Shown: one piece after another, positions 3,029 to 20,526 of the stretch
How the letters are laid out: the number at the start of each line of letters is the position of its first letter
Position numbering within the stretch: the first letter of the stretch is position 1
NCBI GenBank assembly: GCA_009377795.1
Contig: WHTJ01000038.1
Span: 1-40,711, forward strand
Origin: Propionibacteriales bacterium
GTDB taxonomy: Bacteria; Actinomycetota; Actinomycetes; Propionibacteriales; Nocardioidaceae
Reading direction: 5' to 3'
DNA: 40,711 nt
Notes under the pieces: generated by a model
The model's database searches: none
What the model was told of the DNA's origin: nothing
What the model saw: only the letters and a program-made list of their open reading frames with translations
Made by a program: the position numbers and the translations under genes

Positions 3029-4834
3029 TCAGCCTTGGTGCGCGCCTCCTCTGGACGAAGGCAAGGGTTCGAGGCCATTGGCAACGCGGACGAAGTTGAC
3101 CACTTGGCGGACCCGCTTCGCAAGGTCGAGCCGCCAACTTGTGGTCGAGTCCCACCGATCCACTACCGCCCGTGCAATTGCAACCTTGTTCACATCGACG
3201 GACCGGGGGCGGAGAAGCTCTCTGCCCAACGGATTCGCGTACGGCTCACCGCTCCATCTTGTTGTCGCCTTCGGGTGCACCTCTGCAACGGCAGTTCGCA
3301 GATCCTCAGGTGCCACATAATTCTCGACCGTGTAGCCATTGGTCACCCAGGCGAGCCCTGGTCCTTGGTCGAACTCTCTCTTGACACGCTGCTTGGTCGG
3401 GTTGATGCGGCTTTGTGGTTTGAGCTTGTCAGAGTCGATGACAATGGCGATGTGCCGGTTGAGCCTTCGAAGCGAGATGAAGTCATGCACATCGGGATCG
3501 TCTGCGGTCAGGTGGTTGAGCAACCGGCCACCGTAGAACATCAGCGAGTAGTGAATCCCCTCGACCAAGCTGGGATCAACCAAGCTGATCCAGTGGCGGA
3601 GGTAGATACGATCGGATGGCCCTTCGACCCAGATTACGGCGTTGGACTGAACCAGATCCGAGGGTCGGTAGCCAAGATCGGCACAGATCGCCGCCACGTC
3701 GCTGGGCTCGGCAGCGATACAAATTTCCGTTCCTGCGTTGCCAAGAGTGGCGTGGAAGATCGACGCGATCTCTGCGTCCAACATGTGCGCCGAGTGCGTC
3801 GCGATCAGGTACTGGTTACTGGTCTCGGTCGCCAGATAGCGCAATAGCTTGCGCTGGAGAAGTGGGTGCAGGTGGATCTCCGGTTCCTCGATACAGACCA
3901 GGTGGTCGGACAGCAAGCTTGCGGCGCACGCGAGGATTACCACTTGGTGAACACCCGTGCCCAAGTTCTCCAGAGGAAGAACACGCCCGCCGCTCTCGAC
4001 ATGCATCGTCTCGCGGTCATACGGGATCTCGATTCGTACGGTGGGGTCGTCCAGAACCCAACCAACGAATCGCTCGATCTTCTGGAAGATCGCCTTATCT
4101 GCCTGCTGGGATGCGGTAGGTCGCTCAAGCCTGGCCAGCTCATCGATCAGCCCTGTGCCGTGATGGCTGATTCCTGTGGCCTCACCGCCGCCCTTTCGGA
4201 TTTGGCGGAAGGCCTCGATGGTCTCCACAGAGGGGACTGACGCCAGCGGGTTGAAGACCGCCAGGACTCGCCCCAGGTCATCGCCGACGGTTCCACCTTG
4301 CGATCCGGTCAATGCCGCCGATGCCGACGCTAGCGCCCCAGCCTGGCGACGGGGCAACTCCTGCATTGCTTCGCCGATCTGGCTTTTCGACGGCACCAAA
4401 CGTGCCCGATCCCGGTCCTGCTCGAAGAGGTACCGGAACCACAGCAGGTCGCCCCCGGTCAAACGCAGCGGAGGAGTGGCCAGCGCGTGTTGCAGGTCAT
4501 CGAAGTGTGGGCTCAGAGATACGCCGCTCCGCGTCTTATCGTTGAGAGCCTCGATCTCCTGGCGGCCGACGTGGATGGCGATGGCCAGTTCTGCAGGACT
4601 CCCAGCTGGGTCACCGTTCGGTGCGTCCAAACCCGAGATAGCTGACACCTGTACATTCCCCTGCCGGCCGTAACAGGCACCGAGCACCCGCTGAGCGAAC
4701 CGCAGGACATTCGACTTTCCGGTGTTGTTCTGCCCAGCCAGAAGGTTGACCTTGGAGAGCGGCGCGAGAAGTTGCAACCGCTCCTCACGGAAGCTCCGAA
4801 ATCCCCGGAGCCCCAGTCCGACTATCTGCTCCAT
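3029..4834 (-). CDS. OLD-family ATP-dependent endonuclease (AAA + TOPRIM)
   Basis: The protein has 601 residues. An ABC/SMC-type ATPase half shows Walker A GQNNTGKS (34-41), a signature-like LGTGVHQ (291-297) and Walker B CIEEPEIHLHP (314-324). It is followed by a C-terminal TOPRIM half with E404 in WVEGPSD, the IVIDSDK motif (Asp467, Asp469) and NGYTVENYV (499-507), typical of OLD nucleases. Family members cleave DNA and several act in phage defence (P2 Old, Gabija GajA). No UvrD-like helicase partner (GajB) lies next to it, so it looks stand-alone. The ATG at 4834 has GGGAGAA upstream. It converges on the broken MmeI-like gene, consistent with a decayed defence island. All key residues I can locate are intact. 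Confidence 0.85.
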   Translation of the reverse strand: MEQIVGLGLRGFRSFREERLQLLAPLSKVNLLAGQNNTGKSNVLRFAQRVLGACYGRQGNVQVSAISGLDAPNGDPAGSPAELAIAIHVGRQEIEALNDKTRSGVSLSPHFDDLQHALATPPLRLTGGDLLWFRYLFEQDRDRARLVPSKSQIGEAMQELPRRQAGALASASAALTGSQGGTVGDDLGRVLAVFNPLASVPSVETIEAFRQIRKGGGEATGISHHGTGLIDELARLERPTASQQADKAIFQKIERFVGWVLDDPTVRIEIPYDRETMHVESGGRVLPLENLGTGVHQVVILACAASLLSDHLVCIEEPEIHLHPLLQRKLLRYLATETSNQYLIATHSAHMLDAEIASIFHATLGNAGTEICIAAEPSDVAAICADLGYRPSDLVQSNAVIWVEGPSDRIYLRHWISLVDPSLVEGIHYSLMFYGGRLLNHLTADDPDVHDFISLRRLNRHIAIVIDSDKLKPQSRINPTKQRVKREFDQGPGLAWVTNGYTVENYVAPEDLRTAVAEVHPKATTRWSGEPYANPLGRELLRPRSVDVNKVAIARAVVDRWDSTTSWRLDLAKRVRQVVNFVRVANGLEPLPSSRGGAHQG

Positions 4835-6277: not shown

Positions 6278-6301
6278 GTCTCAGTTTGGGTCTCAGTCTC
6301 C
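6278..6301 (+). repeat. GTCTCA doublet, copy A (putative integrase arm-type site)
   Basis: GTCTCA occurs at 6278-6283 and 6290-6295 (12-bp period), with a third partial GTCTCC at 6296. The same doublet precedes all three tRNA-Ser fragments, but no tRNA fragment follows here; the 3' end of the tetR gene lies where one would be expected. It may be a relic of another attachment site. Confidence 0.45.
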
Positions 6302-6355
6302 CTGACAACCCCGACGCGGCGCACACCTGGAGAGGCATCACGGCCGGGGGCTTCA

Positions 6356-7081
6356 CTACCGTTGGCGCGCCGAGTTCTCGCGGTCGTGATCGGCAGAGGG
6401 ATGCCGGGTGGCCGATGTTGTCGAGGTGGTGAGGGCTTCGAGGATCAGGTTGAGTCCCCACGCGAACTCGTCGCCGAAGTCGTAGCCGGGCCGGAGGTAG
6501 TAGTCGGTCGCCATCTCTACGAGGTGGGGGTGCTCGCCGGTGGAGAATCTCTCCATGACGGGCTCGGCGACGTCGGCGACGGTGTCCGAGCCGTCGAAGG
6601 GCAGGCCGACCTCCTGGAGCGCGAAGCCGTAGGTGTAGCTGTCGAGCAGGGCGTAGGCGTGGGCGGTCATCTCGGTGGAGAAGCCCGCGGCCCGCAGGGT
6701 GGCGATGACCGCGTCGTGGTGGCGCAGCGTCGCCGGGCCGGGGCTGGTGCGCGACTCCATCAGTCCGATCGCCCACGGGTGGGCACGCAGTACCCGGCGG
6801 GCCGAGTCGGCTCGCCGACGGATCTCCGTACGCCAGTCCCCGCCGGTCGTGGGCAGCTCGATCTCGCTGAACACGAGGTCGACGATGCCGTCGAGAATCT
6901 CGTCCTTGTTGGCGACGTAGTAGTAGACCGACATCGGCTTCACGCCCAGGCTCCGGGCGAGCGAGCGGATGGTCAGGGAATCGATACCGCCCGCGTCGGC
7001 AACGGCCATCGCGCCCCGCAGCACGCGTTCCCGGCTGAGTCGCGGGCGTTCTGCGCGGCTGTCGTCCGAGCGTTCAGACAT
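6356..7081 (-). CDS. TetR/AcrR-family regulator (TetR_C_1 type)
   Basis: This 241-residue protein has an N-terminal TetR HTH (about 15-65: RERVLRGAMAVADAGG, then SLARSLGVKPMSVYYYVANKDEIL) and a C-terminal ligand-binding domain like that of tetracycline repressors. It is divergent from the dehydrogenase operon beginning at 7193. The 111-bp spacer carries two 11-bp GTACTnnGTAC-like palindromes. It very likely represses that operon and itself, and releases on binding a small-molecule inducer. The inducer is unknown. Confidence 0.85.
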   Translation of the reverse strand: MSERSDDSRAERPRLSRERVLRGAMAVADAGGIDSLTIRSLARSLGVKPMSVYYYVANKDEILDGIVDLVFSEIELPTTGGDWRTEIRRRADSARRVLRAHPWAIGLMESRTSPGPATLRHHDAVIATLRAAGFSTEMTAHAYALLDSYTYGFALQEVGLPFDGSDTVADVAEPVMERFSTGEHPHLVEMATDYYLRPGYDFGDEFAWGLNLILEALTTSTTSATRHPSADHDRENSARQR

Positions 7082-7136
7082 CTCACTCCCATTCGCCGGT
7101 CAGGTTCATCTGGTCAGTTTGAGCAATAGTGCTTTC

Positions 7137-7169
7137 GTACTTTGTACTGGGCTGTACCGTACTAAGTAC
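7137..7169. promoter_or_regulatory. Tandem TetR operator palindromes
   Basis: GTACTTTGTAC (7137-7147) and the perfect palindrome GTACTAAGTAC (7159-7169) lie 22 bp centre to centre, i.e. two helical turns on the same face. They sit between the divergent tetR and dehydrogenase genes, in the expected promoter zone of the latter. The operator role is inferred. Confidence 0.65.
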
Positions 7170-7192
7170 TACCATCCGACACGAGGACACCT

Positions 7193-8236
7193 ATGACAGG
7201 CACGGCGGCAGAACACCAGGCACCCGATCCCAGCCCTGAGGGGAGGCTGGCAGATGCCGGTGCGATGACCGCGATCGTGCAGGACTCCTACGGCGGCGCC
7301 GACGTGCTGCGGCACGAGCGGATTGCCCGCCCCGAGGTCGCCGAGAACGAGGTGCTCGTCCGCGTGCACGCTGCCGGCCTGGACCGCGGCACCTGGCACC
7401 TGATGACCGGCAAGCCCTACCTGATGCGGGTGGCGGGCCTCGGTTTCCGCCGACCGAAGGACCGGGTACCCGGGCGTGATCTGGCCGGCACGGTCGCCGC
7501 CGTCGGCGCGGCGGTGACCCGGTTCGCGGTCGGGGACCAGGTGTTCGGGGTCGGCCGCGGCGCCTTCGCCGAGTATGCGGTGGCTCGGGAGGACAAGCTG
7601 GCCCGCAAACCGGTGAATCTCTCCTTCGAGCAGGCCGCGGTGGTGCCGATCTCGGCCGCCACCGCCCTCCAGGCGCTGTCCGACGCCGGCCGCGTCGAGT
7701 CGGGTCAGCAGGTGCTCGTCATCGGAGCATCCGGCGGCGTCGGCAGCTACGCCGTACAGCTGGCCAAGACCTTCGGGGCAGAAGTTACCGGCGTGGCCAG
7801 CACAGCAAAGCTAGGCCTGGTGCGCTCCCTCGGTGCCGACCGAGTCCTCGACTACACCCGCGACGACTACGCCGACGGCACCCACCACTACGACCTGGTC
7901 CTCGACATCGCCGGGAACCCGAAGCTGTCCCGGCTGCGGCGTGCGCTCACGCCCCGGGGGACAGCGGTGCTCGTCGGCGGCGAGGACGGCGGCAACCTCA
8001 CCGGAGGCATGAACCGAACGCTGCGCGCCCTGGCCCTGTCACCGTTCGTCGGCCAGCGGTTCGCGACCTTCGTCAACAAGGAACGGGCCAGCGACCTCGA
8101 CCGGCTCACCGAGCACATCGAAGCCGACCAGGTGACGCCGAGCATCGACCGCACCTATCCGCTGGACCGAGTCCCGGAGGCGATGCGCCACCTCGCGGCC
8201 GGGAAGGTCCGAGGCAAGGTCGCCATCACCATCTGA
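7193..8236 (+). CDS. NAD(P)-dependent dehydrogenase, MDR superfamily (quinone oxidoreductase-like)
   Basis: This 347-residue protein has an N-terminal GroES-like domain, including VPGRDLAGTVAAVG, and a Rossmann domain with nucleotide-binding GASGGVG (178-184). The Cys/His ligands of structural and catalytic zinc are not evident, so a zinc-free quinone/enone-reductase-type MDR is likely. The ATG at 7193 follows CGAGG at good spacing. A second in-frame ATG at 7265 begins the part conserved in the family, so the first 24 residues may be an extension. It is the first gene of a TetR-regulated operon with a DUF4386 protein and an SDR, suggesting a stress or detoxification role for reactive carbonyls or quinones. 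Confidence 0.85.
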   Translation: MTGTAAEHQAPDPSPEGRLADAGAMTAIVQDSYGGADVLRHERIARPEVAENEVLVRVHAAGLDRGTWHLMTGKPYLMRVAGLGFRRPKDRVPGRDLAGTVAAVGAAVTRFAVGDQVFGVGRGAFAEYAVAREDKLARKPVNLSFEQAAVVPISAATALQALSDAGRVESGQQVLVIGASGGVGSYAVQLAKTFGAEVTGVASTAKLGLVRSLGADRVLDYTRDDYADGTHHYDLVLDIAGNPKLSRLRRALTPRGTAVLVGGEDGGNLTGGMNRTLRALALSPFVGQRFATFVNKERASDLDRLTEHIEADQVTPSIDRTYPLDRVPEAMRHLAAGKVRGKVAITI

Positions 8237-8307
8237 GCACCATCCGAACACCCGTCGGCGCTGCGCAATCCGCCGGACCGATCCCCGCAGAGACAAGAGG
8301 CAAACAC

Positions 8308-9075
8308 GTGACCACCACCGCAATACCGTGGATCTCGGGCGACCGCGGGCACGGCGCCGTACCCACCGAAGCCAGAAACCCACGGACCGGCTCCCGCATG
8401 TGGAGCTCTCGGCTGATCGGAGCCCTGTTCCTGGCCGGATTCGTCGTCTACGGCACCGGCTCGGTGCTGGTGACCTCGGTCGTCGACGGTCCCGACTTCC
8501 TCGCAGGCGTCGGCGCGCAGCAGACCACCCTGTTCATGGGTGCCTTCCTGATGTTGGCGACCACCGCCGTCGATATCGGCAAGGCGGTGCTGTTCTTCCC
8601 GGTCCTGGAACGCCACGGCAAGCGGACCGCTGTGGCCTACCTGGCCACGATGATCTTCGAGATGGCCCTGATGACGGTCGGAGTGCTCGCCCTGCTGATG
8701 CTCGTCCCCCTGTCCGACCAGGTCGACGTCGGGCGGCTGGGTGCGGATGCTGCCCAGGCTCTCGGGTCGCTCGCGGTCGACGCGAACGAGACGGCCTACC
8801 AGATCGGGCAGCTCTCCCTCGGCTTCGGGTGCCTCTTCCTGTGTGCGCTGCTGTTCCGGACCCGGCTGGTCCCCAAATGGCTGGCGGGCTGGGGCCTGGT
8901 CGGCTACGCGCTCCACATGTCCGGCGCGGCCGCAGAGATCCTCGGTGCCCCGATCAGCCTGGTGCTGCTGATCCCGGGCGGAATCTTCGAGGTGACGCTC
9001 GCGATCTGGCTGCTCATCAAGGGCTTCACGCCGGCGGCGTACGACGGACCGCCAGTGACCCAGATCGACGAATGA
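8308..9075 (+). CDS. DUF4386-type multi-pass membrane protein
   Basis: The protein has 255 residues with about six membrane-spanning segments: near 35-55, 73-98, 105-137, 158-178, 187-205 and 215-235. The arrangement and the motif near QQTTLFMGAFLMLATTAVD match DUF4386 proteins. GTG start with GAGG about 8 bp upstream. An in-frame ATG at residue 31 is an alternative start nearer to the first helix. The biochemical role of the family is unknown. Its place between two reductases under one TetR promoter suggests a membrane partner for the same response. Confidence 0.75.
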   Translation: MTTTAIPWISGDRGHGAVPTEARNPRTGSRMWSSRLIGALFLAGFVVYGTGSVLVTSVVDGPDFLAGVGAQQTTLFMGAFLMLATTAVDIGKAVLFFPVLERHGKRTAVAYLATMIFEMALMTVGVLALLMLVPLSDQVDVGRLGADAAQALGSLAVDANETAYQIGQLSLGFGCLFLCALLFRTRLVPKWLAGWGLVGYALHMSGAAAEILGAPISLVLLIPGGIFEVTLAIWLLIKGFTPAAYDGPPVTQIDE

Positions 9076-9087
9076 GCAGGCTGGCCA

Positions 9088-9951
9088 ATGACATCGATGA
9101 CCGGGAGGACGGTGCTGGTCACCGGCGGTACCGGCGGAATCGGCAGGGCCACCGCCCTGGGCCTGGCCAGGATGGGCGCGGACGTTGCGATCACCGGCAG
9201 GGACGCCGTCCGCGCGCAGGATGCCGCTGCGGAGATCCGCTCCACCACCGGCGCGACGGTCGACGTCTTCATCGCGGATCTGTCCACCCAGTCGGAGGTG
9301 CGCCGGCTGGCCGCCGAGGCGCTCGAACAACTTCCCCGCATCGACGTCCTGATCAACAACGTCGGCGGGTACTGGAACACCCGCCACGTCACCGCCGACG
9401 GACTCGAGCAGACCCTTGCCGTCAACCATCTCGCGCCGTTCCTGCTCACGAACCTGCTCCTTACCCGGCTCGAGCAGGGCGGCCATGCTCGCGTGGTCAC
9501 GGTCTCCTCCCACGCCCACGCGCAGGGCAGGATCGACTTCGACGACCTCCAGAGTGCGCGTTCCTACGCTGGGGCGCGTGCCTACAACCAGTCCAAGCTC
9601 GCCAACGTCCTGTTCAGCTACGAGCTGGCCAGGAGACGGCGACCTAGCCTGGTTGCCGCCAATGCTCTGCATCCCGGCGTCGTGAGCACAGCCTTCGGAG
9701 CAGAAGACCCCGCCAGGACGCAGCAGCTGCTGGTGCCGTTCCTGCGACCCTTCATGAAGAGCGCGGCCCAGGGTGCCGCAACGTCGATCCATGTCGCGTC
9801 CGCTCCCGCACTCGAAGGCGTCACGGGCCGCTACTTCACCAACAGCCAGCCGAAGCGATCGGCCCAGCGCAGCTACGACGAGGCCACGGCAGCGAGGCTG
9901 TGGCGGATCAGCGCCGACCTGGTTGGCCTTGTCCCAGGAAGCAGGCGGTAA
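9088..9951 (+). CDS. Short-chain dehydrogenase/reductase (SDR)
   Basis: This 287-residue classical SDR has the TGGTGGIG cofactor loop (12-19), an NNVG-type motif (90-93), catalytic Ser140/141 (TVSSH) and the Tyr166-x3-Lys170 pair (YNQSK). It resembles the retinol-dehydrogenase/WW-oxidoreductase-like branch. The start is 12 bp after the stop of the DUF4386 gene, with GAGCAGG upstream, so it is probably the last gene of the operon. Substrate unknown; NADP(H) use is likely because of the basic residue after the glycine loop region (TGRD). Confidence 0.85.
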   Translation: MTSMTGRTVLVTGGTGGIGRATALGLARMGADVAITGRDAVRAQDAAAEIRSTTGATVDVFIADLSTQSEVRRLAAEALEQLPRIDVLINNVGGYWNTRHVTADGLEQTLAVNHLAPFLLTNLLLTRLEQGGHARVVTVSSHAHAQGRIDFDDLQSARSYAGARAYNQSKLANVLFSYELARRRRPSLVAANALHPGVVSTAFGAEDPARTQQLLVPFLRPFMKSAAQGAATSIHVASAPALEGVTGRYFTNSQPKRSAQRSYDEATAARLWRISADLVGLVPGSRR

Positions 9952-10075
9952 CGAGTCGAGGCCGGTGACGATTTCCATTGGCGGGCAAAGAGGCGCATGT
10001 TCCCCACCACGATTTCCCGCGGGAGTTGAAGATGGCAAAACGTATTCGCTTGGGACGCAAGATGGGGAACCTATC

Positions 10076-10159
10076 GTGAAGGCACTCGTCGTATATGAAT
10101 CCATCTTCGGCAATACCGAGCAGGCGGCCCGTGCGATCGGTGATGGACTGGCCGAGTAG
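10076..10159 (+). pseudogene. Flavodoxin-domain protein, N-terminal fragment
   Basis: A GTG start with GGGGA upstream begins KALVVYESIFGNTEQAARAI, the FMN phosphate-binding loop (YESxFGNT) of flavodoxin-like proteins. After 27 codons the frame stops at TAG, exactly where the first GTCTCA of an attachment region begins. Flavodoxins need about 140 or more residues, so this is a gene start severed at an element boundary. Confidence 0.7.
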
Positions 10160-10176
10160 TCTCAATTTTAGTCTCA
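10159..10176 (+). repeat. GTCTCA doublet, copy B
   Basis: GTCTCA at 10159-10164 and 10171-10176, 12-bp period, followed by TTCG. The second hexamer begins 102 bp before the tRNA-Ser fragment at 10273. It is probably an arm-type integrase binding site. Confidence 0.55.
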
Positions 10177-10272
10177 TTCGCGTCTGTCCGCGACCGTTCG
10201 CGAGTGGTCGCCAGGACACTGGCAGAGCGTAAGAGGGCAGCCGTACGTCGTTGGCGGACCGTCGAGGACGGA

Positions 10273-10329
10273 CTTGGAAAGCGTGTTGGGTTAACGCCCT
10301 CGCGGGTTCGAATCCCGCATCCTCCGCCA
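10273..10329 (+). repeat. tRNA-Ser(GGA) 3' half, attachment-site copy 1
   Basis: This 57-bp stretch runs from the anticodon loop (CTTGGAAAG, anticodon GGA) through the anticodon 3' stem, the long class-II variable arm (GGG TTAA CGCCC), the T-arm (GGGTTCGAATCCC) and the acceptor 3' strand ATCCTCC-G-CCA. There is no 5' half (no GGAGGAT acceptor strand, no D-arm), so it is not a functional tRNA. It is identical to copies at 12920 and 16471, and the flanks diverge right after CCA, as expected for att cores of tRNA-integrating elements. Confidence 0.85.
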
Positions 10330-10376
10330 AACGCTCGGCGGCGACGTTTCCACAGCTCAGGGCGCGGTTTAGGCTG

Positions 10377-10516
10377 ACGCGCCGGCCGACGACTTTCTCG
10401 CCGTGGCCTGGCACCGGCACTTGCTCGAGCGGCACCTCGAGGATCGCCGCAAGACAAGCGCGAAACGTCGTCGATTCCGACGTCGCGAACGAGTCACCCA
10501 GCGAGACCTCGCGCAT
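10377..10516 (-). pseudogene. Possible N-terminal fragment of a hypothetical protein
   Basis: Read on the minus strand from the ATG at 10516, the first 40 or so residues (MREVSLGDSF, then FRACLAAILEVPLEQVP) look like the start of a hypothetical family opening with a CFRACxAxxLxLPLExVP-type motif, except that here Thr replaces the first Cys. Past about 10380 the frame runs into the tRNA fragment and becomes meaningless. It fits a gene cut at the attachment site. I cannot name a function. Confidence 0.35.
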
Positions 10517-10576
10517 GGAAACCGATCATAAGCCGATCCCGACCCGCGTTGACTTCGCCGGACGGCTATCGGGGTG

Positions 10577-11707
10577 TCAGACGCGATACTCCGCGGCGAG
10601 CGGACAGCGGAAGGAGTCCTTGCCGGCGATTCCCACATTATTGAGGTAGCGCACGACGGCACCGTATGCGCCGACGAGGCTGGTCTCCGTGTAGCTGATC
10701 TTGTGCCGGGCGCAGTACTCCCGCACAAGAGGTTGCACCTGGCGCAGGTTGGGCCGGGGCATGCTCGGGAATAGATGGTGTTCGATCTGATAGTTGAGCC
10801 CGCCAAGTGCGAAATCCATCGCCCGGCCACCGCGGATGTTGCGGGACATGAGCACCTGCCGCCGCAGAAAGTCGACCTTCTGGTTTGGCGCGACGATCGG
10901 CATGCCGATGTGGTTCGGCGCGAAGGAGCCTCCCAGGAACAGGCCGAACAATCCCATCTGAACACCGAAGAACGCGGCGGCCTTGCCCGGCGGCAACACG
11001 AGGAGCAGCACGGCCACATAGGCGCCAATGCGCGTGACCACGAAGGCCGCTTCGCACCAGCGGTGCGTCAGAGCCTCCCGGCGCCCGATCATTCGGATGC
11101 TCGCGACGTGCATGGAGAGCCCTTCCAGCAGGAGGAGCGGGAAGAGCAGATACCCCTGCCGGCGGGTCAAGCGAGCACTCAGCCCACGCCTTCTCTGCGC
11201 AGCAGCGGGCGTGAACACGAGAACACCCGGCTCGACGTCCGGGTCGGCGCCTTCCTTGTTCGGGTTGGCGTGGTGCCGATTGTGCTTGGGCAGCCACCAC
11301 CCGTAACTCAGGCCCATGAACAACCCCGAGATCACCCGGGAGGTCCATTCGTTCCAGCGGGGAGACGCGAAGATCTGGCGATGTGCCCCGTCGTGGCCGA
11401 GGAAGCCGAACTGCGCGAGTACGGCGGCCAGGACGCCGGCAAGCACCAGCTGGAACCAGGAGTCGCCCAAGAACCCGAACGCCACCCAAATCCCCGCGAA
11501 CACCAACACGGATCCGATGAGCTTTGACCAGTAGTAGCCGTAACGGCGCTTGAGCAGTCCGGACGCCTTGATCCGGTGAGACAGCTCGGTGAATGTGCTG
11601 ACGTACCGTTCACTCACAGAGCCGCCGTCATGATCTGACGGCGCCGCCCCACCGTACGCCTCGGGGCCCGAGGCCTCCGATCGCACGCGGGCAAGGGTTT
11701 CACTCAT
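10577..11707 (-). CDS. Membrane fatty acid / acyl-CoA desaturase
   Basis: This 376-residue protein has the three histidine boxes of membrane di-iron desaturases: HDGAH (105-109), HNRHH (142-146) and QIEHH (307-311). The Q-x-x-HH third box and the overall pattern match linoleoyl-CoA/delta-6-like and mycobacterial DesA3-type front-end desaturases. Hydrophobic pairs near 63-103, 186-205 and 225-262 cross the membrane. ATG at 11707 with GAGG 6-7 bp upstream. It introduces a double bond into acyl chains, which suits membrane fluidity control; the cold-shock gene upstream on the same strand is a suggestive neighbour. An electron donor gene is not visible. Confidence 0.88.
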   Translation of the reverse strand: MSETLARVRSEASGPEAYGGAAPSDHDGGSVSERYVSTFTELSHRIKASGLLKRRYGYYWSKLIGSVLVFAGIWVAFGFLGDSWFQLVLAGVLAAVLAQFGFLGHDGAHRQIFASPRWNEWTSRVISGLFMGLSYGWWLPKHNRHHANPNKEGADPDVEPGVLVFTPAAAQRRRGLSARLTRRQGYLLFPLLLLEGLSMHVASIRMIGRREALTHRWCEAAFVVTRIGAYVAVLLLVLPPGKAAAFFGVQMGLFGLFLGGSFAPNHIGMPIVAPNQKVDFLRRQVLMSRNIRGGRAMDFALGGLNYQIEHHLFPSMPRPNLRQVQPLVREYCARHKISYTETSLVGAYGAVVRYLNNVGIAGKDSFRCPLAAEYRV

Positions 11708-12387: not shown

Positions 12388-12849
12388 TCAGTCGATCGTG
12401 TGGCCGCCGTTCACTGTGATCCGCTCGCCGGTGACGAACCCGGCCGCGTCGGACGCGAGGAAGACCACCGCGGCCACGTCGTCGGGCCGGCCGATGTGCC
12501 CGAGCGGTACGTCGGCCAGGCAGCCGTCCAACGTGAACTCGATCACCCAGTAGGCGTGGTAGATGATCTCGCCATCGCTCAACTCACCCTCTGCATCGAC
12601 GTCGATCTCGACTGCACGCAGGACACTGCAGCTCCGACACGTGCGTGATCTGGTCAGCGCCTCGGGTTCCTCATCCATAGCTGCGACCTTGGCAGCCACC
12701 AGCGTCTCTAGGACCTCGCCGTTACCGACTGACTTAGCCAGCTGCCTGTAGCTTTCTTCTGCAGCCACGATCCGCTTCCTGACCTCTTGTTCGATCCAGG
12801 CCCGCCGTCTCAGTTTCCGTCTCATTCGCAGCCGTTCGGGCTCGTTCAC
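12388..12849 (-). pseudogene. Chimeric ORF: unknown N-terminus fused to the C-terminal end of an SDR
   Basis: The last 39 residues ([20 protein letters not shown] onward to VNGGHTID, 12388-12507) are the unmistakable C-terminal end of a short-chain dehydrogenase. The catalytic Tyr-Lys and the cofactor loop are absent. The preceding 114 residues are unrelated, charged, and contain a CRSC motif that I do not recognise. The first residues are a translation of the GTCTCA doublet (MRRKLRRR), so the annotated start lies inside the attachment region. I read this as an SDR gene end joined by rearrangement to a small unknown gene. Expression is unproven. Confidence 0.55.
12807..12824 (+). repeat. GTCTCA doublet, copy C
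   Basis: GTCTCA at 12807-12812 and 12819-12824 (12-bp period). The second hexamer begins 101 bp before tRNA-Ser copy 2. The roughly 100 bp in between closely resemble those before copy 3, for example the shared GACCGTCCATCGGCGACCA. Confidence 0.6.
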
Positions 12850-12919: not shown

Positions 12920-12976
12920 CTTGGAAAGCGTGTTGGGTTAACGCCCTCGCGGGTTCGAATCCCGCATCCTCCGCCA
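12920..12976 (+). repeat. tRNA-Ser(GGA) 3' half, attachment-site copy 2
   Basis: A 57-bp direct repeat identical to copies 1 and 3, from the anticodon loop to CCA. No 5' half is present. Left flank homologous to copy 3 for more than 100 bp; right flank unique. Confidence 0.85.
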
Positions 12977-13098
12977 ACCGGCCAGGCACGATGCCAAGCC
13001 GGGGTCGGCCGGCACGCCCGGCCCGAGAGCGTCCGTCTCAGTTGGGGAGGTCTAGTGTCGTGCGCCAGGAGCAGCAGCGTGCGTTGCTGTGCCGATGC

Positions 13099-16470: not shown

Positions 16471-16527
16471 CTTGGAAAGCGTGTTGGGTTAACGCCCTCG
16501 CGGGTTCGAATCCCGCATCCTCCGCCA
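16471..16527 (+). repeat. tRNA-Ser(GGA) 3' half, attachment-site copy 3
   Basis: Third identical 57-bp copy, from the anticodon loop to CCA. The sequence to its right contains an MFS transporter end with no beginning, marking the outer edge of the stacked elements. Confidence 0.85.
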
Positions 16528-16591
16528 CGCGAGCTTTCGGACGTTTACGCAGGTCAGGCGGCGATTTCGGAAGACCTGAAGCACCCTCGCC

Positions 16592-16920: not shown

Positions 16921-17289
16921 ATGAATGTTTCGGAAGGGTCAGGGCGGATCCAGCACGACGACCTTACGCCCGCGATCAGGCCGCGGTGGGCCGTCGTCGG
17001 TGCCGATGGGAGTCTCGTGCGTGACAGGGGCGCGACCGCCTCGGCGCGTACTGTGGCGGGCGACTACGAGGTGTTCTTCAACCGCGACGTCTCCGAATGC
17101 GATTTCGTGGCGACGTTGGGAAACCCGGGCGCCGGCAACCCGGACCCCGGCTTCATCGTCGTCGCAGCGCGGGTCGGTCAGCCGAACGGGGTGTTCGTGG
17201 CGACCTCCAACACCGCTGGCGCCAGCACGGACCGTTCGTTCCACCTGCAAAGTGGAGTGCTGATCCGAGCGGAAGGGACGGCTGGATGA
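16921..17289 (+). CDS. Hypothetical beta-rich protein, first gene of the TGT-like operon
   Basis: The protein has 122 residues from the ATG at 16921, which has GGGGAGGGG just upstream (the earlier in-frame ATG at 16885 lacks this). No signal peptide or membrane segment. Residues 20-115 look beta-stranded: RWAVVGADGSLVRDRG, GDYEVFFNRDVSECDFVATLG, FIVVAARVGQPNGVFVATSN and a final RSFHLQSGVLI. This pattern is reminiscent of jelly-roll or tail-fibre-tip folds. I do not recognise a named family with confidence. Its stop overlaps the next start (ATGA), so it is coupled to the 479-aa gene. Confidence 0.7.
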   Translation: MNVSEGSGRIQHDDLTPAIRPRWAVVGADGSLVRDRGATASARTVAGDYEVFFNRDVSECDFVATLGNPGAGNPDPGFIVVAARVGQPNGVFVATSNTAGASTDRSFHLQSGVLIRAEGTAG

Positions 17290-18725
17290 TGTCTGCGGTG
17301 GAGAGTTTGGCGGTGGTGCCGGTTCCGCCGGCCTCGGAGCACAGTGGCGAGGCGCTGGCGGGTTTGCTGGTGCCGCAGCGGCAGGCGGCCCGGGACGCGG
17401 ACTGGCCGACACTGCTGCAGTTGTCGCTGAACCTGCTGGGTGCCGCGCATGGGCATGGGGTGGCTATCCGGGCGGTGCGCGGCTCGGCTGCGGTGCAGGC
17501 TGAAGCAGCGGTGGAGATGGCGGCGCAGCTACAGGACGGGCTGGCTGAGCTGGCGGCCCGGGACGATCATGCCGCGCAGGCGCAGGGCATCCGGGAGCAC
17601 CTGCAGGGGATCGACGCGTCGTTGGCGACGCGAGCCGGCCCGCTGCTGGATCAGGTGGCGGCCGGGTCGATCGAGCCTGGACCGTTCGAGGAGGGCCGGG
17701 CGTCGGCGGCGGTGTTGGGGCAGGCGGCGGGCACCGAGCTGGAGGCGGGGTTGTGTGTGGCCGCGGCGGCGCGGGGACTGCTGGGGCTGGTGCATTGGGT
17801 GGTGAACACCGCCGACCCGGGCTCGCCGGATCTATCGCGGTTCGACGCCCAGCTGGAAGCGTTCCAGCAGGCCCACGCCGAGACGGCGCAGACGCTGCGG
17901 GCGGGCGAGCTGGCGCTGCACACCGCGTGCGCCGACGGGCGGCCGGCCGCGGTGGAGGCTGAGGCGGCCGGGCTGTCGGGAACGGTGCAGGAGGTGGTGG
18001 TGCCGTTCGCCGCCCAGCAAACGGTCGGCCGGGGATGGGTGGCGGCGCTACGCCAGGCCGGCCGGGGCGGGGACGCCGAGCAGATCGGCCGGGTGCTGGC
18101 CGCCGACGCACTGCTGCTGCGGCGGGCGATCGCCGATGCGGCGGTGGCTGAACAGCTACGGCTGGACCTGGCGTTGCGGGAGCAGCCGGAGCCAGTGGCC
18201 GCGCTGCTGCAGGCCAGCGGGGTGGCCTTCGACGCCGAGCTACCGAATGGCCGCGACACCCCACTGGCGCATCTGGGCGCCGCCGACGACGGCGACTTCG
18301 TGCAGGTGGAGGGGTTCGTGGTGGAGGCCACCGCGGACCGGGAAGCCGACGGGAAGCTGGTGGGCCGGCTGGTGGTGCAGGATGCCTCCAGCCAAGCCAC
18401 CGCGGAGCTGGCGACCGTCTTTCTGCATCCGCCGCACGTGGGGATCACGCTGGGCTGTTATCTGGTGGCCCACGGGATTTTCCGGGTGTCGTCTGCCCGG
18501 CTTCAGGGCCGGCCGGGGGTGGAGGTGGATGCGTTGGCGCCGGCGGCGCTGGGGCAGGCCGCCTGGCAGGCGCGGCTGTGGTTCACCGCCGGCCGCTGGC
18601 TGGATATGTGGCGCAGCAACCTGAACCTGTGCTGGTCGCTGGGCGGCCACACCGCCGGCCCGGACGACAGCGAGGAACCCACCCGCGGCGCGGCGGAGCT
18701 GATCTACGCCCCGTTCGCCCGCTGA
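17286..18725 (+). CDS. Hypothetical 479-aa protein, helical N-terminus with OB-like C-terminal part
   Basis: The start ATG at 17286 (or 17289) overlaps the previous stop; upstream ORF extension would run through that gene in another frame. Residues 20-310 are Ala-rich and predicted helical, with repeated amphipathic segments. Residues 335-420 (DFVQVEGFVVEATA, GKLVGRLVVQDASSQATAELA, YLVAHGIFRVSSARLQG) have the strand-turn pattern of an OB-fold, which would suggest nucleic-acid binding. The C-terminus is Trp-rich (WQARLWFTAGRWLDMWRSNLNLCW). I cannot assign a family. It is followed 24 bp later by the small coiled-coil gene, so all four genes appear co-transcribed. Confidence 0.75.
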   Translation: MMSAVESLAVVPVPPASEHSGEALAGLLVPQRQAARDADWPTLLQLSLNLLGAAHGHGVAIRAVRGSAAVQAEAAVEMAAQLQDGLAELAARDDHAAQAQGIREHLQGIDASLATRAGPLLDQVAAGSIEPGPFEEGRASAAVLGQAAGTELEAGLCVAAAARGLLGLVHWVVNTADPGSPDLSRFDAQLEAFQQAHAETAQTLRAGELALHTACADGRPAAVEAEAAGLSGTVQEVVVPFAAQQTVGRGWVAALRQAGRGGDAEQIGRVLAADALLLRRAIADAAVAEQLRLDLALREQPEPVAALLQASGVAFDAELPNGRDTPLAHLGAADDGDFVQVEGFVVEATADREADGKLVGRLVVQDASSQATAELATVFLHPPHVGITLGCYLVAHGIFRVSSARLQGRPGVEVDALAPAALGQAAWQARLWFTAGRWLDMWRSNLNLCWSLGGHTAGPDDSEEPTRGAAELIYAPFAR

Positions 18726-18749
18726 GCCGACGCGGAAAGGGAGGTTGTG

Positions 18750-19085
18750 ATGGCTGGGTCTGCATGCGAGACACTGCGGGATGAGGCCCGCGATGCCCGC
18801 CGGGACGCCGAGCAGGCGGCCACGGAGACCAAGGAGAGCCTGCAGGAGGCCCGCGACGACACTGGCAAGGCGATCGCGTTGTGCGCGACCACCGCCGGCG
18901 GTTTCGCCGCCGGCGTGGCCGCCGGGCTGGCCACCACCCCGGCGTGCCTGGGCGGGGTCTGGGAGGCGGCCACCTCCTGGTGCGATGTGCGGGACTCCGG
19001 CAAGGAGGCCGTCGATGCGACCGCTGCCGCCGCGGAGGCGCAGCAAGCGTATCTGGCCTGCTTGAACGACCACAAACGCAGCTAA
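18750..19085 (+). CDS. Small protein with coiled coil and glycine-rich hydrophobic segment
   Basis: The protein has 111 residues from the ATG at 18750, preceded by GGGAGG at 5 bp (the in-frame GTG at 18747 is too close to it). Residues 5-40 are highly charged and heptad-like (coiled coil). Residues 41-70 form a Gly/Ala-rich hydrophobic stretch (GGFAAGVAAGLATTP) resembling a glycine zipper. A second amphipathic helix follows. Four cysteines lie near positions 6, 45, 66 and 78, plus one near 103. It could oligomerise or insert into membrane. No named family recognised. Confidence 0.7.
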   Translation: MAGSACETLRDEARDARRDAEQAATETKESLQEARDDTGKAIALCATTAGGFAAGVAAGLATTPACLGGVWEAATSWCDVRDSGKEAVDATAAAAEAQQAYLACLNDHKRS

Positions 19086-19107
19086 GCCTGCTGTCGGCGC
19101 GGTCGTG

Positions 19108-20526
19108 ATGGGACAGTTCTTCTACAACCTCTCACCGGACACCTTCACCCCGGCCAACCTGCAGCTGGAGCCGGTCGGCTACCTGCTGGCCCCCAACAAC
19201 GCCACCCCGCAGCTGACCGGGCTGGCCCGCCGGGTCCGCGCCGCCGGGTTGGGGCTGCTGGCCGACAACGGCAACTTCACCGTGATCGGTCAGGTCCGGG
19301 CCGCCCTGTCTGAGGCGGCCGCGGCGCTGCACGCGCAGGTCGACGCGGTGGAGGACCGGCTGGGCCGGTCGGTCCGGCCCGGTGAGCTGCCCGATCGACT
19401 GCAGGCCGACTATTTCGAGTTGTCGGTGCGGGCCCGGGAGCTTGCCCGGCAGCTGGCCGGCGACGGCGAGGCCAGCCTGGCCGGGCAGCTGGCGCTGGAC
19501 CCCACCTATCTGATCGGGGTCGAGGACATCACCGCCGCCTGCTGGCTGGCGCTGGACCTGGAACGCAGCCACACCGGACGGCGGCGCCGGGACTGGCGCC
19601 GGATGAACACCGCGGTCGCCCGCCGCGCCGCGGAGCGGATCGACCGGCTGCCGGAGCGGCTGCGCGAGCGGTACTATCCGGTGGCCTGCGCGGAGTCCTA
19701 CAACACCGCCTGGGACGCCGGACAGGTGTTCGCCGACCACGGTCTGACCCCGATCGCAATGGGCTTCGGCGCCTTCATGGCCGACGCCAACTACACGGAT
19801 CACGTGTTCATCGGCCGCCGCCGGATCGATTTCCCCGGCCGGCTGCCGAACCGCTACACCCGCACCGTGCTGGTCGCCCGCGGCTTCTGGGACGGCTACC
19901 GCTCCGCCGCCGGCACGACCCCGCAGGGGTTCCACTTCCTCGGCCTGGGCGCCCCGATCATGCTCCCGCTGGTCGCCCTGGCCGCCGACAACGACACCGC
20001 CTTGAGTTTCGACGCGACCAGCCCGATCAAGGACGCACTGCGTGATGGTGTGCTCTACGTCACCAAGCCCGCCTACCTTAAGATCCGCATCCGCAAGAGC
20101 GCCGGCTGGCTGGCCTCCGACCTGCGCCGCACCTGGGACTGCCCCTGCCCGTTCTGCACCGCATTCGCCGAACAGTTCCCGTTCGACTATCCAGTCGGGC
20201 ACGCCTGGCGGACTGCCCATCCCGACCAGGACCCCACCGCAGCCGACCTGCGCCCCGGAGGCGCGCTCTACGACGCCTACCCGCTGTTCTCCGAACCGCC
20301 GTCCGGGCCCCGTCGCGACGCCGTCGACCACGCCCGCATCGGACACAACCACTGGGCCCTGGAAACCATCCTCACCGCCATCCGCGAAAGCCGCGGCCAC
20401 GACACCCTGCGGGCGCATGTGCAGGCAGTGGTCGCCGCCTACACACCGACCACCTCACCGCCCTTCGCTGAGGCCGTCACCAACGGGCTGCGGTTCGCCA
20501 CCGCCGACATCGAATCATCGCCCTAA
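19108..20526 (+). CDS. tRNA-guanine transglycosylase (TGT)-like / DpdA-like base-exchange enzyme
   Basis: The protein has 472 residues from the ATG at 19108. TGTs swap guanine in nucleic acid for a 7-deazaguanine; DpdA relatives do so in DNA. I see the TGT core out to its ends. DNGNF (53-57) matches DSGGF with the general-acid Asp. FLGLGAP (277-283) stands for the VGGL-type loop. SFDATSPIKDALRDGVLY (300-317) matches the FDCVxPTRxARxGxLF nucleophile segment, with Asp302. KIRIRKSAGWL leads into the zinc motif CPCPFC (Cys345, 347, 350), and a candidate fourth ligand is at His413/415 in IGHNHWALE. Similarity to bacterial Tgt is distant and the 100-190 region is an insertion. The gene is 22 bp after the small protein gene. 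No queC/D/E/F genes are in the window, so preQ0 would have to come from elsewhere. Confidence 0.75.
   Translation: MGQFFYNLSPDTFTPANLQLEPVGYLLAPNNATPQLTGLARRVRAAGLGLLADNGNFTVIGQVRAALSEAAAALHAQVDAVEDRLGRSVRPGELPDRLQADYFELSVRARELARQLAGDGEASLAGQLALDPTYLIGVEDITAACWLALDLERSHTGRRRRDWRRMNTAVARRAAERIDRLPERLRERYYPVACAESYNTAWDAGQVFADHGLTPIAMGFGAFMADANYTDHVFIGRRRIDFPGRLPNRYTRTVLVARGFWDGYRSAAGTTPQGFHFLGLGAPIMLPLVALAADNDTALSFDATSPIKDALRDGVLYVTKPAYLKIRIRKSAGWLASDLRRTWDCPCPFCTAFAEQFPFDYPVGHAWRTAHPDQDPTAADLRPGGALYDAYPLFSEPPSGPRRDAVDHARIGHNHWALETILTAIRESRGHDTLRAHVQAVVAAYTPTTSPPFAEAVTNGLRFATADIESSP

Follow-up and report, generated by a model that had tools for sequence, protein, structure and literature searches.

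What does an enzyme with the motifs of a tRNA-guanine transglycosylase (TGT) do when it is encoded beside stacked integration sites, in the company of genes of no recognised family? This question is raised by positions 16921-20526 of contig WHTJ01000038.1 from a Propionibacteriales bacterium, whose 40,711 nucleotides, analysed at full length, are called the window below. A first-pass annotation had described four tightly packed genes at these positions (here g1 to g4) and had read them as a base-modification operon built around the last one, a TGT/DpdA-like gene. Four open reading frames (ORFs) on the plus strand are indeed present, all with coding-type third-position GC; the gap between g2 and g3 measures 21 to 24 bases and that between g3 and g4 ~20 bases, and a promoter and terminator scan of the locus found none. 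Apart from a weak match of g1 to a tail protein in PHROGs (E 1.3e-4), the four window proteins gave no credible match in Pfam, PADLOC, NCBIfam or PHROGs (E ≤ 10). As we set out below, g2, g3 and g4 form a conserved cassette, and this cassette may be, with a probability that we put at about 0.4, a mobile chromosomal module of the conflict type, whose TGT-fold enzyme would act on guanine in nucleic acid together with an OB-fold guide and a hairpin partner.

The AlphaFold model of g4, built on an alignment of the seven members introduced below, has a pLDDT of 89.5 and a pTM of 0.90 and displays the TGT barrel that the first-pass annotation had proposed to look for. Comparison with VIA-align yielded Z-scores of 24.6 for the archaeosine TGT 1iq8 (root-mean-square deviation (rmsd) 3.1 over 309 residues) and 22.5 for Zymomonas Tgt 2oko (rmsd 3.2 over 304 residues), and the best 50 entries listed all belong to the TGT family. 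All six Foldseek matches in the PDB at E ≤ 0.001 are likewise TGTs, and the best named match in BFVD is the TGT of Achromobacter phage Motura (E 3.3e-4). By its predicted structure, g4 is a TGT-fold protein.

The g4 members are 40-69% identical to the window protein over the best segment and share the invariant motifs DNG, ED, GFGA, RYxRT, LGxGA, DATSP, CxCxxC and HNHW. An hhalign comparison with 19 bacterial Tgts pairs Asp53 with the Asp of DSGGF, Asp140 with the pocket Asp that comes next, LGLGAP with LMGVGTP, Asp302 with the nucleophile Asp and CPCPFC with the cysteines of the zinc site, all in one register. As aligned, the catalytic-type aspartates and the putative Cys3His zinc motifs of g4 are in Tgt register, and all seven members retain Asp53, Asp140, Asp302 and the Cys3/His motifs; Asp53 (in DNGNF), Asp302 (in FDATSP) and CPCPFC lie where the first-pass annotation had sited them. 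We take Asp53 to correspond to Asp102 in Z. mobilis Tgt numbering, Asp140 to Asp156 and Asp302 to the nucleophile Asp280, and the base-reading glutamine of Tgt to be Gln203. The distance from Asp53 to Asp302 is 249 residues in g4 against a median of 173 in bacterial Tgts (15 of the 19 could be measured). This excess, previously described as a single 90-residue insertion, falls in two places around Asp140, with ~33 extra residues before it and ~43 after it; in the Micromonospora protein the excess before Asp140 is almost absent (56 vs 54). The label "TGT/DpdA-like" holds for the fold and for the order of the motifs, but likeness to DpdA in particular was not established.

A species-wide scan for g4 produced 23 pattern matches, of which six are loci of the same kind: a Deltaproteobacteria metagenome-assembled genome (MAG) and a Burkholderiales MAG (L001 and L002), Cellulomonas carbonis (L003) and C. 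endophytica (L004), and Micromonospora chaiyaphumensis and Nocardioides donggukensis (L005 and L006). Together with the window, the seven loci fall in at least three classes and represent a lower bound, because the scan reaches close relatives only. By ORF reading, g4 is adjoined by g2 and g3 at 7/7 loci; each of the six additional loci encodes a protein of 450-497 aa with an OB-like domain at its end and, immediately after it, a small protein rich in Ala and Gly. The order g2-g3 is always kept, while g4 lies before, after or opposite the pair: the order is g2-g3-g4 in the window, L005 and L006, g4-g2-g3 in L001, L003 and L004, and in L002 g4 is convergent with g2-g3.

To compare the partners independently of their position, profiles were run against the complete set of 1053 ORFs of 70 aa or more in the window and the six loci. 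With a g2 profile made from L001, L002 and L005, the other four g2 genes were the next four of the 1053 ORFs (L003, E 8.1e-6; L004, 1.3e-4; L006, 0.078; window, 0.56), and a five-member g2 profile retrieved L003 at 3.3e-8 and L004 at 1.2e-7; profiles of window plus L006 alone, or of L003 plus L004 alone, did not significantly retrieve the remaining g2 genes. The g3 profile from L001, L002 and L005 placed L003 (2.1e-4) and L004 (2.3e-3) next and the window g3 ninth (E 1.9), and in a five-member g3 profile L003 came eighth (E 0.39). On these ranks the homology of g2 as a set is well supported at the sequence level, and for g3 of the window and of L006 it is position and pattern that speak for homology. 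The gene g1 was considered as a further member and rejected: its best tblastn match in the six loci has an E-value of 0.017 and lies in L002 outside the cassette, and nothing in the phage collection matches it at E ≤ 0.01. Co-occurrence in other genomes, proposed earlier as a check of the four-gene operon, is therefore found for g2, g3 and g4 and not for g1; a multi-gene module with fixed partners stands, with g2-g3-g4 as its unit.

Within the two close pairs of loci, similarity is confined to this unit. At E ≤ 1e-10, blastn gave a single match between the window and L006 (17376-20502 against 6289-9398, 69.6% identity) and a single match between L003 and L004 (7909-11215 against 7909-11200, 81.1%), with no similarity in the flanks of either pair (~6 to 8 kb per side). 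Judged from these alignments, the cassette moves between bacteria as a unit, without its flanks. Conservation is lowest at the third codon position in g2 and g4 in both pairs and in all three genes overall, a pattern expected under purifying selection. A chance grouping, in which a divergent Tgt paralogue happens to lie beside unrelated neighbours, would fit the fast divergence of g2 and g3 and the several cross-locus matches at E > 0.05; it is hard to sustain, and in our view highly improbable, given the same trio at 7/7 loci in at least three classes and the non-matching flanks in both close pairs. The L003/L004 similarity begins ~60-75 bases upstream of the g4 start, and inside this conserved stretch, at 7926-7955 of L003, TTGTCA is followed after 17 nt by TAGCCT (TACCCT in L004); read by eye, this is a possible promoter ahead of g4 in both Cellulomonas loci.

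The AlphaFold model of g2 has an overall pLDDT of 58.7; its OB region is well predicted, and its N-terminal part is helical with no recognised fold. The OB domain superimposes on the N-terminal domain of archaeal MCM (VIA-align Z 11.6, rmsd 2.4 over 84 residues), with many further structure matches at slightly lower scores to OB folds of tRNA synthetases and replication proteins (AspRS/AsnRS, PolC and RPA) and a best Foldseek E-value of 3.1e-3. In Pfam, two families were matched by one g2 member each, RMI2 (E 0.01) and tRNA_anti-like (E 0.049), both OB folds; a PDB sequence search with g2 found no match. According to its model, g2 carries an OB fold.

For g3, a pattern of four cysteines is found in 7/7 members when the positions are read by eye and the L002 start is chosen by hand: the first lies close to the N-terminus and the last close to the C-terminus, and each of the two hydrophobic stretches has one cysteine within it or nearby. 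The spacings of the two arms co-vary, being 39/38 in the window and L006, 39/38 (or 42) in L003 and L004, 45/46 in L001 and 45/44 (or 46) in L002 and L005. Such spacing is compatible with an antiparallel hairpin of helices that two pairs of cysteines hold closed, and the joint change of the arms may represent one evolutionary change. Two stretches pass the hydrophobicity limit in five of the seven proteins and one does so in the window and L006. The automatic alignment retains only C6, C66 and A73 as invariant, Pfam matches of g3 members are spread over 19 families with one member each (best TrbK, E 0.002), and a PDB sequence search with g3 returned three unrelated matches (best E 0.77).

From fold, motifs and partners we infer the glycosidic chemistry on guanine, the nucleic-acid guidance by g2, the role of g3, the conflict function, the target and the incoming base of the proposed module. 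By analogy with Tgt, g4 would break the glycosidic bond of guanine through a covalent intermediate between Asp302 and the sugar. The g2 protein would position the nucleic acid, RNA or single-stranded DNA, on g4, and g3, a helical hairpin rich in Ala and Gly and held together by two disulfides or by metal, could serve as a membrane-facing or structural partner. The incoming group might be a base that is scavenged or comes from a phage, an ordinary purine or water; host synthesis by the known pathway is probably not its source, as some hosts show no preQ0 synthesis. The patchy distribution and the shuffled gene order suggest a conflict (defence-type) role rather than housekeeping.

The supply of the base bears directly on the interpretation. 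The Tgt family PF01702 has no match in the window's genome, which is 96.8% complete, with 14/14 controls positive; it also has none in the hosts of L003-L006 and one match each in the hosts of L001 and L002. QueC (PF06508) has no match in the window's genome or in the L004 host, with controls positive in 12/14, and strong, full-length matches in the L001 and L002 hosts. The C. carbonis genome contains a QueC-family frame of 281 aa (85.9 bits), the L005 host a short partial match below the cut-off, and the L006 host short partials, one of them just above it. The C. carbonis frame is located at C3:28661-29230 of that assembly (G656), on the same contig as the cassette and ~230 kb from it. By these matches the known deazaguanine route appears to be missing in at least two of the seven hosts and is doubtful in two more.

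These data weigh on the possibility that the locus is a 7-deazaguanine modification system, Dpd-like or acting on tRNA, whose preQ0, preQ1 or queuine would come from host synthesis or from salvage. The TGT fold and motifs of g4, the full-length QueC and the Tgt in the L001 and L002 hosts, the QueC-family frame in C. carbonis, and the phage 9g DpdA, which aligns weakly but in register at both catalytic-type motifs, speak for it; QueC is unmatched in the window's and L004 genomes and present only as short partials in the L005 and L006 hosts, and a PADLOC comparison of ten window neighbours gave no Dpd-type gene among the matches listed (for one ATPase, 25 of 115), salvage transporters not being part of the search. 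In the window's host, where neither a PF01702 Tgt nor QueC was matched, the classical 7-deazaguanine reading is left without a base supply; across all carriers we consider a 7-deazaguanine system unlikely. The base modification postulated by the first-pass annotation, read as a 7-deazaguanine mark on DNA, finds neither PF01702 nor QueC in this genome, salvage not having been tested. What endures of that overall reading is the TGT fold and the existence of a module; the four-gene unit and, in the window's host, a deazaguanine modification of DNA are not supported, and the DpdA likeness is not established.

Another explanation is a nucleobase-protein conjugation, in which g4 binds or transfers a base onto g2 or g3, like Cap10 and its nucleotidyltransferase in type IV CBASS. 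Cap10-CdnD (9ntn chains) is among the first non-Tgt structure matches of g4 (Foldseek E 0.054-0.057, TM 0.24-0.32, probability 0.93), far below the Tgt matches; Cap10 offers a precedent in binding a deazaguanine-linked protein N-terminus (PMC11996544), and the cassette has a fixed small partner with conserved cysteines, g3. The cassette is nevertheless without a QueC-like Cap9 or a nucleotidyltransferase, PADLOC matched neither g1-g4 nor any of the seven g4 members, and the OB fold of g2 points to nucleic acid, so that conjugation seems quite improbable to us.

Doubtful as well is a guanine-removing effector, in which g4 would hydrolyse guanine from RNA or DNA and leave abasic damage, with g2 targeting or restraining it and g3 acting as membrane effector or stabiliser. 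It would accommodate the undetected base supply in some hosts, the retained nucleophile Asp302 and the g3 hairpin with its hydrophobic middle. The match of one g3 member to SLATT_1, a two-transmembrane effector family, has an E-value of only 0.81, which is chance level, and is listed with unrelated families. A broader formulation combines several of these elements: a conflict module without 7-deazaguanine supply that carries out OB-guided removal or exchange of guanine (or of a phage's modified guanine), or conjugates a base to a partner, with the disulfide-stapled hairpin signalling to the membrane. We regard this formulation as possible but less likely than not.

Several observations weigh against the conflict-type module acting on guanine that we favour. 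The alignment of g4 with the 19 Tgts is weak (E 0.024, probability 2%), and global-mode hhalign gave no useful alignment; PF01702 is unmatched at E ≤ 10 by 7/7 g4 members, TIGR00449 matches one member only (E 0.29), and a PDB sequence search with g4 returned three unrelated matches (best E 0.15). At the strand of the base-reading glutamine of Tgt, g4 has PVASA/PVACA, read by eye because the automatic alignment is shifted there; the glutamine seems, from this reading, to be replaced by Ser, and by Cys in the window g4, and the guanine specificity of g4 is therefore not assured. The g3 proteins of the window and L006 and the window g2 join the distant members through their rank, their position and their pattern, with E-values that are not significant. 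A deazaguanine substrate is possible in the two proteobacterial hosts, since both have Tgt and QueC. Finally, the flanks that were read show no conserved defence neighbours, and no known defence gene was recognised among ten scanned flank genes of the six other loci.

The same ten flank genes include no conserved neighbour shared by L001-L006. Profile and protein sweeps of 296, 396, 300, 219, 260, 215 and 192 genomes, some of which may recur, found known carriers only; a 54-residue g4-like fragment (G1062, E 7.2e-4) was dismissed as chance on account of an internal stop. A virus or plasmid origin of the cassette was considered and rejected. Viral contigs, plasmids and phages contain nothing that matches the window g4, the g4 profile and L001 g4 have none in viral contigs, and L001 g4 has none in phages; L002 g4, window g2 and L002 g2 have no plasmid match, and L002 g2 none in viral contigs, the viral-contig scans depending on short exact peptide patterns.

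The coordinates of the locus are collected in Table 1.

Table 1. Genes, domain and motifs of the locus, in window positions. Residues of g4 are numbered from the ATG at 19108.
Feature	Position	Strand	Description	Basis
g1	16921-17289	+	122 aa; stop overlaps g2 start by four bases; outside conserved cassette	
g2	17286-18725	+	479 aa; helical N-terminal part and C-terminal OB fold (predicted)	ORF, AlphaFold
OB-fold domain of g2	18243-18530	+	residues ~320-415	VIA-align, Foldseek
g3	18747/18750-19085	+	112/111 aa; small Ala/Gly-rich helical protein, hairpin-type cysteine pattern	
g4	19105/19108-20526	+	473/472 aa; divergent TGT-fold enzyme (predicted)	AlphaFold, structure comparison
Asp53 codon (DNGNF) of g4	19264-19266	+	aligns with Asp of Tgt DSGGF	
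Asp140 codon (GVEDIT) of g4	19525-19527	+	aligns with second base-binding Asp of Tgt	
Asp302 codon (FDATSP) of g4	20011-20013	+	aligns with nucleophile Asp of Tgt	
CPCPFC of g4, Cys345/347/350	20140-20157	+	putative three zinc-ligand cysteines; aligns with CxCYTC of Tgt	
HNHW of g4	20344-20355	+	candidate fourth zinc ligand (His); aligned near His of Tgt	

The surroundings of the cassette bear out the stacked integration sites that had been noted beside the operon. A 61-nt 3' end of tRNA-Ser(GGA) is present in three copies (10273-10333, 12920-12980 and 16471-16531), of which the second and third belong to a longer 178-nt repeat (90%), and the intact tRNA-Ser(GGA) gene sits on another contig of the genome (C160); the copies mark past integrations. 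Neighbouring genes of the window match DUF397, DUF5753 and Methyltransf_19, families that suggest an actinomycete host. Elsewhere in the window, 1340-2875 encodes an MmeI-like type IIG protein that covers profile positions 407-908 of 912 only, its N-terminal part being missing or elsewhere, and 3029-4834 (minus strand) an AAA ATPase resembling the defence ATPases GajA/OLD/AriA. Beside an integration repeat, the match of 12388-12849 (minus strand) to a short-chain dehydrogenase is limited to the C-terminal end, and the gene looks truncated.

TGT-fold enzymes are known for queuosine and archaeosine in tRNA and for DNA marking (DpdA). Their fold has been known in nucleobase-protein conjugation in CBASS since 2025 (PMC11996544). 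If the reading proposed here is true, another TGT branch, with fixed unrecognised partners and in hosts seemingly without the usual base, would add a further chemistry or target to the fold; the g2-g3-g4 unit is small enough for direct cloning and assay.

We recognised no description of the g2-g3-g4 trio in the literature searched, and its resemblance to known TGT-fold systems is partial in each case. With Tgt, archaeosine TGT and QTRT1, g4 shares the barrel fold (Z 22-25) and the motif order DxG, Asp, LGxGxP, nucleophile Asp and CxCxxC...H; it differs from the Tgt family in being only ~12-15% identical, under all the reporting limits applied for Pfam, PADLOC and PHROGs, in its shorter N-terminus, its additional helices and a beta-hairpin that carries the invariant RYxRT, in a nucleophile motif DATSP in place of DCVMPT, and in its constant company of g2 and g3. 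BREX-related capture, GNAT plus TGT (BRC) systems also recruited a TGT homologue into a conflict operon (PMC12839542). They resemble the cassette in having a TGT homologue in a multi-gene setting, but their defining components are large ones, PglZ and HerA/FtsK among them, and none of g1-g4 matches a PADLOC model. Like Cap10 of type IV CBASS, which is described as a member of the TGT family whose remodelling lets it bind a protein N-terminus linked to a deazaguanine (PMC11996544), g4 would place a TGT fold outside tRNA modification and in a multi-gene module, whereas the nucleotidyltransferase (CD-NTase) and the QueC-like Cap9 of CBASS are absent from g1-g4. DpdA is likewise a TGT-superfamily enzyme outside tRNA modification. 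The nucleophile-type motif D-[AS]-[TS]-S of the phage 9g protein resembles DATSP of g4 in a weak single-sequence alignment (E 0.092), but this DpdA has no CxCxxC where g4 has CPCPFC, and the partners of g4 differ from those in Dpd clusters, with no QueC match in the window's genome. At E ≤ 10, PADLOC yielded no match for g1-g4 or the seven g4 members, the presence of a DpdA model in its library not having been checked. Because the defining features of Dpd and CBASS that were tested were not found, we assign the cassette to neither. Among described systems, DpdA (PMC6884629), Cap10 (PMC11996544) and the BRC TGT (PMC12839542) come nearest to it.

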